NCBI RefSeq assembly: GCF_026586675.1
Contig: NZ_JAODIX010000019.1
Span: 1 to 64,000, forward strand
DNA: 64,000 nucleotides
Direction: 5' to 3'
Origin: Halorubrum yunnanense
GTDB taxonomy: Archaea; Halobacteriota; Halobacteria; Halobacteriales; Haloferacaceae
Under the pieces are notes generated by a model that saw only the letters and a program-made list of their open reading frames with translations, made no database searches and was not told where the DNA came from. Shown here piece after piece: positions 11,957 through 43,376 of the stretch; positions within the stretch are counted from its first letter, which is position 1; every line of letters starts with the position of its first letter. The translations under genes and the position numbers were made by a program.

Positions 11957-12345
11957 AGCCCTGGCTTGTTGCTGTCGGCGGCGCGGCGAACCTCGCAAAG
12001 CCCAGCCGCTTGCTTATAAGCGGTTGTCGTTAGATCGACGGTGAACACCTCCAAAGCCCCAGTCGCGACGACTCGGGGGCCTTGCTGCGCTCCTCGCTCG
12101 CGCTGCTCGCTGCGGTGCTTACTGCGGCCGCCTTCGTCCTCGCGACTGCCCCTTTGAGTCCCATCCGCTCCGCACAGCACCGCACCTCACGCCTCCCCAG
12201 CCTCGCCGCTCGCGCCTTATAAAGGCGCTCGCGGCGTCCCTCGCACGCGCTTCTCGCGCCCGATTGGCGCTCGAAGGCGCGCAGGGCGAGAGCGAAGCTC
12301 TCGCTTGCAGCCGGCGCGTAGCGCCGGCGACGCCACCGCGGAATC
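11957..12345 (+). repeat. structured intergenic repeat, copy A
   Basis: This fills most of the 547-bp gap between srp54 and the MFS gene. Leader units ending in AAAGCCCCAG (11957-12002 and 12003-12060) contain a TATA-like palindrome, gcttataagc (12012-12021). A conserved GTGCTTAC block lies near 12115, and the core opens with CGTCCTCGCG-CTGCCC-TTTG-GTCCC (from 12136). Hairpin 1 is 12205-12216 with 12224-12235. Hairpin 2 is 12256-12270. Two extra perfect 8-bp hairpins, absent from the other copies, are at 12286-12304 (GAA loop) and 12310-12328 (GTA loop). The element ends near CGCCACCGC. No credible coding frame exists in it. Confidence 0.85.
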
Positions 12346-30104: not shown

Positions 30105-30525
30105 CGATGCGGTGGCGCGTGCCTCCGAGCGCCCTCGGGGCGCGAGGAGCACGCGCGAGGGAGTCGGTCGTCCGGAGCAACGCGGAGGGCGACCGACGAG
30201 GCTGGGGAGGTGTGAGGCTGCGGTGCTGTGCGGTCGGGGTGGGACCCAAAGGGGCAGCCGCGAGGACGAAGCACGACGACGTAAGCACTGGAAGGAGTGA
30301 GCGTAGCGAACGACTGAAGCGCGCAGCGAGTCGCGCGAGTCCTCGCGGCTGGGGCTTTGGCGGTGTTCGCCGCCGATCTGTGTTCAATCGCTTGTAAACG
30401 AGCGGCTGGGGCTTTGGCGGTGTTCGCCGCCGATCTGTGTTCAATCGCTTGTAAACGAGCGGCTGGGGCTTTGGAAGTGTTCCCCGCCGATCCGTTCTCA
30501 ATCAGTCATAAATGACGGCTGGAGA
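30105..30525 (-). repeat. structured intergenic repeat, copy C (inverted)
   Basis: Reads on the minus strand and occupies most of the 626-bp gap between the GH15 and Rieske genes. Leader: 57-bp units at 30345-30401 and 30402-30458 (identical), a diverged one at 30459-30514 and a partial one after it, each ending in AAAGCCCCAGCCGC on the minus strand. Core: GTGCTTACGTCG (30277-30288), then CGTCCTCGCGGCTGCCCCTT-type block, hairpin 1 (30163-30170 with 30190-30197), hairpin 2 (30129-30143) and an outer helix (30115-30126 with 30146-30156, one bulge). It ends at CGCCACCGCATCG next to an AT-rich tatttataaata tract (30091-30102). Nothing else is recognisable in 30526-30648. Confidence 0.87.
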
Positions 30526-42939: not shown

Positions 42940-43376
42940 CAGTCGCTCGCTTATCAATGGCTGATAGCGGATTGACGGGGAACATCTCCGAACCTCCAGC
43001 CGCTCATTTATATACGGTCGAGAACGCATCGACGGCCAACGCTTCCAAAGCCCCAGCCGCGAGGACGACCTACGCTCGCTGTCGTTCGAGACGCCGAAGG
43101 CGTCTCGTGATGACGAGAGAGCTTCGCTCTCTCGAACCACGCTCCTCAGTCGCTCGTTTCACTCGCTCCTTCTGGTGCTTGCGTCGCCTAAGCCGTCCTC
43201 GCGACTGCCCTTTTGAGTCCCGCCCCGACCGCAACCGCACCGCAGCCTCACACCTCCCCAACCTCGGCGGACGAACCGGCGCGGGCGGAGCCGCGCCGGC
43301 CCACCGCCTCCCTCGCACGCGCTCCTTCGCGGCCGCCGGAGGCGGCCGCTCGGAGGCGCGCGCGCCACCGCACCAG
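42940..43376 (+). repeat. structured intergenic repeat, copy B
   Basis: Fills most of the 542-bp gap between the DUF7511-like gene and pabC. Leader units: 42940-42996 and 42997-43054, the second with atttatata (43006-43014) and ending AAAGCCCC. A variable stretch carries two perfect hairpins, GAGACGCC-GAA-GGCGTCTC (43088-43106) and CGAGAGAGC-TTC-GCTCTCTCG (43114-43134). The conserved GTGCTTGCGTCG block lies near 43176 and the core starts near 43196. Hairpin 1 is perfect 9 bp (43276-43284 with 43291-43299). Hairpin 2 is perfect 9 bp (43329-43337 with 43341-43349, GGA loop). It closes with CGCCACCGCACC and is followed by cttataaaag (43380-43389). Confidence 0.88.

Follow-up and report, generated by a model that had tools for sequence, protein, structure and literature searches.

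A dispersed, protein-less element of haloarchaeal intergenic regions with a covarying, strand-specific fold and replaceable hairpin cassettes

Results

The genome of Halorubrum yunnanense carries about 107 copies of an element whose G-rich strand, which in copy A is the minus strand, is selected for its fold. The copies hold their addresses, and mostly their orientation as well, between species while their hairpin cassettes get replaced. The element is ancient, protein-less, dispersed, intergenic and haloarchaeal. It is without a named family, and the nearest described sequences are the PATEs/SMRs and REP/BIME. Three of the copies, termed A, B and C, lie in the window, by which we mean the whole 64,000-nucleotide stretch of DNA that was analyzed; the genome carrying it is a 3.17-Mb assembly of 116 contigs. 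A preliminary description had recognized an element with shared blocks at these three sites, and the blocks are indeed present in the sequence of each. New beyond that description are the scale of the family, the strand that folds and the shuffling of cassettes.

Anatomy of the Element

The features of the three copies are listed in Table 1. On the + strand of copy A, at least one tandem unit of ~57 bp with TTATAA and GAACACCTCCAAAGCCCCAG is followed by CAAAG-CCC-CAGYCGCGAGGAC, an inner region and GTCCTCGCGRCTG-CCC-CTTTG. The second part of the element consists of a linker with GAGTCCCACCC and CCTCACGCCTCCCCAGCCTCG, hairpin 1, CTCCCTCGC, hairpin 2 and CACCGC. The hairpin 2 domain of copy A has an outer helix, a GA/GA loop (on the minus strand) and an inner helix. 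The last of the C-tracts of this copy is shortened to CC, and copy B has approximately three left tandem units. A TATA-like box (TTTATAAA) stands to the right of the element in 64 of 81 flanks, mostly 4-14 nt past CACCGC, compared with 1 of 81 in a control window.

Table 1. Positions of element features in the window
Feature	Position	Folded strand	Basis
Copy A	11957-12345	minus	sequence
Copy A, left tandem unit of ~57 bp (CAAAGCCCAGCCGC, CTTATAA box, GATCGACGGTGAACACC)	11993-12051	minus	sequence, copy alignment
Copy A, P0-P4 domain	12052-12156	minus	covariation on 62 sequences, fold
Copy A, P0 (CAAAG with CTTTG; CCC/CCC internal loop)	12052-12056 with 12152-12156		
Copy A, P1 (inside: 2-bp ladder, GA/GA loops on minus strand)	12060-12072 with 12136-12148		
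Copy A, four C-tracts on + (G-tracts on folded strand)	12057-12060, 12149-12152, 12160-12162, 12165-12166	minus	
Copy A, single-stranded linker, conserved blocks GAGTCCC and CACGCCTCCCCAGCC	12157-12204	minus	copy alignment
Copy A, hairpin 1	12205-12235	minus	sequence, fold
Copy A, hairpin 2 domain and right end GCCACCGC	12240-12339	minus	sequence, fold
Copy A, foreign double-hairpin module in hairpin 2	12283-12331		missing from hairpin 2 of most copies
Copy B, inverted; P0 arms 30355-30359 and 30247-30251	30105-30525	+	
Copy C; inserted double-hairpin module in apical part, ~43088-43141	42940-43376	minus	

The preliminary description, which counted three copies where the genome has ~107, needs revision in several details. 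It read the reverse complement of the strand that folds, and it overlooked the ~57-bp left tandem units and the TTTATAAA box just to the right. Of the blocks that it listed as conserved, CTCGCACGCGC has to be withdrawn, as it forms one side of the outer helix in hairpin 2 and reads CTCGCGCGTGC in copy B; the shared blocks otherwise stand. Its variable hairpins do pair, but the largest helix, CAAAG-CCC-CAGYCGCGAGGAC with GTCCTCGCGRCTG-CCC-CTTTG, and the apical ladder escaped it. It also interchanged the hairpin 1 sequences of copies B and C, which are GTCGGTCG../..CGACCGAC in copy B (minus strand, ~30198-30162) and GGCGGACGAACCGGCGCGGGC..GCCGCGCCGGCCCACCGCC in copy C (~43264-43306). Finally, the GAGCGAAGCTC and CGGCGCGTAGCGCCG hairpins at 12283-12331 of copy A form a separate inserted module outside the element proper.

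Such double-hairpin modules of ~50 bp (for example AGCGAGGGACCTCCGGTCCCTCTGGCAGCCGGCGCGTAGCGCCGGCGAC) were seen at varying sites inside copies, including A, C and those of five loci, and they resemble SMR-A repeats. A piece ~90% identical to the module over ~50 bp occurs in an annotated NAD(P)-binding protein gene on Haloterrigena and Halomarina plasmids. The left tandem units, present in most copies (for example at 30361-30520 and in loci L011 and L021), are near-identical within a locus and different between loci. Each has a TATA-like box ~25 nt before GAACACC, and the units are possibly repeated promoters or slippage arrays. Several contigs of the H. yunnanense assembly start within a few hundred bases of copies, and hairpin 1 contains stretches of N in several copies; short-read assemblies seem to break at the element.

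Size and Distribution of the Family

The 21-base core GCGRCTGCCCCTTTGRGTCCC, with up to three mismatches allowed, matches the H. yunnanense genome 107 times (53 and 54 by strand), and the reversed 21-mer used as a control matches it once. This difference, together with covariation over 62 copies that exceeds every shuffle (below), excludes chance as the origin of the family. Copy A used as a DNA query against its own genome gave 69 matching pieces among the 40 best-scored candidates, and the copies were analyzed on genome stretches surrounding them. Homologues in other genomes, which had been set beforehand as a test of the element, were found throughout the genus and across the class. All 35 congeners of the first Halorubrum set contain relatives, and the number of core-pattern copies per Halorubrum species ranges from 0 to 193. 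Class-wide, core matches were found in 173 of 394 genomes, which represent 52 of 86 genera, a signal fainter than that within Halorubrum; single matches at three mismatches occur at about the control level, and the class-wide evidence therefore consists of the larger counts and of sequences inspected directly. The true relatives identified by such inspection in other haloarchaeal families have the core GCCCCTTTCAGTCCC, and part of them have a longer, Halorubrum-like right half. The compact element of other families was also observed as back-to-back inverted pairs ~20-40 bp apart (six loci).

Both strands are used about equally, with core counts of 53/54, 83/67, 102/91, 55/51 and 45/57 in the genomes counted, and on these strand counts replication polarity was rejected. 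Copies are present on plasmid records of about a dozen genera, mostly one on each and nearly all unannotated. A plasmid-borne mobile element was rejected, as the haloarchaeal plasmid records concerned (10 and 14) mostly carry a single copy. Phage records gave no match to the element and the exact core was absent from viral contigs, which argues against a phage or viral origin.

A Covarying Fold

In the fold, an all-G internal loop separates a short helix, P0, from a long and variable one, P1. Inside P1 lies a ladder whose 2-bp steps are parted by GA/GA mismatches. The ladder is capped mostly by GNA triloops, which make up 92 of 136 apical triloops. Halorubrum copies have two further hairpins past single-stranded linkers. 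Their P0 is CAAAG/CTTTG, and that of other genera is GAAAG/CTTTC.

An alignment of 62 copies from Halorubrum and other genera contains 27 consensus pairs, of which 21 vary on both sides. Standard pairs occupy 97.2% of the cells, compared with 77.9% after shuffling; the variable hairpins of the homologues do pair. Both-sided cells number 306 versus 72 in the shuffles, and the covariation score is 0.506 versus 0.155. None of 500 shuffles was as high. Structures slid along the alignment gave at most 46.7% paired cells and a score of at most 0.076, a comparison in which the true structure is favored by having been derived from the same alignment; the shuffle margin and an independent arm-swap test agree with it. 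In the arm-swap test, arms from the same copy form 653 Watson-Crick cells; when arms are shuffled among copies, the mean is 497 and the maximum 529. The relatives gave 882 against 674. An ungapped test of hairpin 1 gave a weak signal because the register of this hairpin varies. Covariation so far above the shuffled and slid controls bears out the earlier proposal of selection for a fold, as expected of a structured RNA or a structure-recognized DNA repeat.

The Folded Strand

Mispairs in P1, read on the + strand, are 82 A-C versus 12 G-T; the 82 become G-U when the minus strand is read. Most of this asymmetry stems from two positions, without which it is 17 to 7 (p = 0.06). RNA folding is better for the minus strand in 90 of 91 first domains and in 56 of 59 hairpin domains. 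The apical motif GA-2bp-triloop-2bp-GA occurs on the minus strand of most copies and practically never on the + strand. GNA triloops are exceptionally stable in DNA, where both they and PyGAPu mismatches act as stabilizers. The wobble asymmetry, RNA folding, apical motif and triloops together support a single-strand fold of the minus strand and disfavor a symmetric cruciform. An RNA energy model gives the covarying ladder on the minus strand, whereas a DNA energy model does not.

Beside the first domain, GGG-N1-2-GGG is kept in 165 of 188 copies, a count to be read with three of the G-tracts being part of the search seed. From these tracts and the GGG/GGG loop we infer that a quadruplex could form, helped by high K+.

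Exchange of Content between Copies

In 22 ortholog pairs with both flanks matching, the similarity of the ortholog has a median rank of ~51 of 96, like that of a random paralog. Alignments show flanks of up to more than 90% identity around hairpins that have been swapped yet remain self-complementary. Within the H. yunnanense genome, no two of the 61 complete cores compared are above 88.8% identity. In one species, G019, two subfamilies have spread recently, to 6 and 7 unlinked loci (13 in all), with 95-98% identity in the first domain. At these same loci identity is 53-72% in hairpin 1, 78-79% in hairpin 2, 67-71% in the left arms and ~55% in the flanks, from which it follows that the domain, not the element, was copied.

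At one P0 pair, the sister species G015 (54 versus 3) and G021 (61 versus 2) have G-C almost throughout. The same pair is A-U in H. yunnanense (49 versus 1) and in G062 (117 versus 17), and G006 is mixed (37 versus 15). This genome-wide flip represents concerted, compensatory evolution. Gene conversion is established between the genome copies of polyploid haloarchaea (PMC4056108). We infer that ectopic gene conversion between dispersed copies probably replaces the cassettes; independent re-insertion at kept sites is a less probable source of the mosaics.

Genomic Context and Kept Addresses

Gene context was assigned with a simple codon-usage gene caller, by which 83 copies were classifiable. 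All 83 are intergenic, and no gene was called across any of them. Convergent gene pairs surround 34 copies, co-directional pairs 39 and divergent pairs 10; the window's own 55 gene pairs are 12 convergent, 32 co-directional and 11 divergent. Convergent contexts are thus enriched (34/83 versus 12/55, p = 0.03), and the depletion of divergent contexts is not significant. Beside co-directional genes the copies have no orientation bias (21 to 18).

The SRP54 gene of the window has its best named relatives in H. lipolyticum, H. salipaludis and H. persicum. The element lies downstream of SRP54 in 14 of 30 congeners and upstream in 12 of 30, always in one orientation at each site, and the named genomes agree on these addresses. 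The upstream copy was also found, in matching orientation, in Halogranum, Halobaculum and one other haloarchaeal genome. Absence from the SRP54 sites is patchy and filled sites have common flanks, which suggests old insertions that were lost repeatedly. Filled and empty sites differ by more than the element, the flanks included, and no target duplication is readable. Nor is a terminal inverted repeat pair of the MITE type evident in the copy alignments. At the site of copy C both orientations occur among congeners, and orthologous intergenic regions are often without the element.

Downstream of SRP54, H. sodomense and H. amylolyticum appear to have IS-like DNA where others hold copy A. In one of these loci (L218) it directly follows GTTTATAG and includes a reading frame that, judged by eye, is TnpB-like.

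Discussion

Comparison with Known Families

As the preliminary description had stated, no named family matches. Rfam release 15 gave no match in the window at the gathering threshold, and the best sub-threshold match to copy A was CRISPR-DR20, with 15.8 bits where the threshold is 42. No tRNA or tmRNA identity was found. Literature covering few subscription journals was searched for the core and for dispersed repeats in haloarchaea, and no description of the element was found. The PATEs and SMRs of Haloquadratum walsbyi are hairpin elements and small repeats inserted into palindromes (PMC3119063). Like them, the present element is haloarchaeal, protein-less and high in copy number, with palindromes near its ends and small repeats in palindromes. 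Its near-terminal palindromes are confined to one strand and lack coding capacity, as in PATEs. However, PATEs are tied to IS605-type transposons, whereas here a Y1 HUH transposase is dispensable (in G015, below), covariation of the stems extends across the class, and resident copies exchange their cassettes.

With REP/BIME the element has in common ~100 or more intergenic, strand-specific hairpins per genome and, in other genera, inverted pairs. It differs from them in its fold of ~120-300 nt, its inner GA/GA ladder, its conserved linkers and the replacement of stems by compensatory change. Since the element has traits of both groups and is without the Y1 dependence of PATEs, we place it in neither, the comparison with REP/BIME being one of hairpin traits alone. 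Compensatory base-pair change beyond controls is a property that it has in common with structured non-coding RNAs.

Integron attC sites are single-strand folds in which structure is conserved more than sequence. The likeness to attC is one of resemblance in this respect, and the present element is without gene cassettes and is dispersed singly. In Neisseria, the pilE guanine quadruplex starts antigenic-variation gene conversion. One-strand G-tracts next to gene-converting loci would be the analogous feature here, but ~100 dispersed non-coding copies exchange mutually, and the quadruplex is present as a motif only. Structured RNAs linked to dispersed elements are also found in the archaeal IS200/IS605-associated omega RNAs (PMC12558985). 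The element differs from them in that none of the copies examined was seen to include TnpB.

Proposed Mechanism and Alternatives

We tentatively favor, at a confidence just below even, a single-stranded DNA fold that is bound by a host factor and kept by selection, with ectopic gene conversion as the source of its shuffling. The G-rich strand would become exposed beside the A+T-rich TTTATAAA boxes when the DNA is replicated, transcribed or resected, and would then fold. That the fold acts as single-stranded DNA is a step to which we give slightly better than an even chance. A host factor would bind the folded single strand, and in a cytoplasm rich in K+ the G-tracts next to the hairpin might adopt a quadruplex. 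Once folded, the strand would provoke strand exchange between copies, so that only foldable cassettes would persist and spread. Cassette replacement would be ectopic gene conversion in polyploid cells, with the conserved linkers as crossover points. The DNA level is favored by the lack of orientation bias beside genes and of consistent promoter spacing, and the frequencies of GNA triloops and of the TATA-like box are also counted in its support. Against it stand the covarying ladder, reproduced by RNA and not by DNA energies, and the shortened tract of copy A. In a more far-reaching version, which we regard as unlikely, nucleic acid alone would constitute a recombination system that maintains itself across the class: a folded strand able to form a quadruplex would provoke gene conversion among ~100 dispersed copies, foldable cassettes would circulate and compensatory changes would sweep all copies together.

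The element might instead be a multi-copy structured non-coding RNA, a possibility that we take seriously while thinking it doubtful. The minus strand would be transcribed, to ~330 nt in Halorubrum and ~120 nt in the compact versions, and would act in trans, perhaps bound by protein; the copies would be either dispersed genes or selfish RNA genes that have been retained. The covariation, in which G-U is tolerated on a single strand, points in this direction, as does the RNA energy model, which reproduces the ladder and favors the minus strand. Strand asymmetry, G-U tolerance and GA/GA loops suit a transcribed RNA equally well, and a TATA-like box adjoins the right end. Judged by spacing, however, this box would start the RNA ~24 nt further on, within the first of the two hairpin 2 arms, and the upstream SRP54 copies abut the preceding stop codon without a TATA box. 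No conserved terminator was seen, no Rfam family matches, and the back-to-back inverted pairs leave just ~20-40 bp between diverging copies.

A non-autonomous element of the IS200/IS605 type (PATE-like) or of the REP/RAYT type, moved by a HUH Y1 transposase that recognizes its single-strand hairpins, has a small chance of being correct. One-strand hairpins, high intergenic copy number, inverted pairs and small modules in hairpins would all be expected of it, as for the Haloquadratum PATEs/SMRs (PMC3119063). However, congener G015 has 106 core matches but no match to the Y1 transposase (PF01797), so an autonomous parent with this enzyme is not needed there now, although the element may have depended on one in the past. 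The H. yunnanense genome is without near-identical whole copies (88.8% at best), the recently spread unit is the domain rather than the element, and addresses are retained between species.

Transcription terminators or insulators kept in cis between genes are the least probable explanation, and a very unlikely one: the intergenic position of all 83 classifiable copies and the enrichment of convergent pairs would fit, but that enrichment may only reflect promoter avoidance, of two converging transcripts a single one would carry the strand-specific fold, the element is often missing from orthologous intergenic regions, and the absence of orientation preference beside co-directional genes speaks against a terminator with a preferred direction.

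Implications

Some haloarchaeal genomes thus hold at least a hundred copies of an unannotated element that equals established structured RNAs in the cleanness of its covariation. It unites traits that are rarely combined: its addresses are kept, its content passes from locus to locus, and compensatory substitutions occur in concert across the genome. The family offers a tractable case for gene conversion on structured DNA in polyploid archaea and, if transcripts exist, would constitute a new RNA class.
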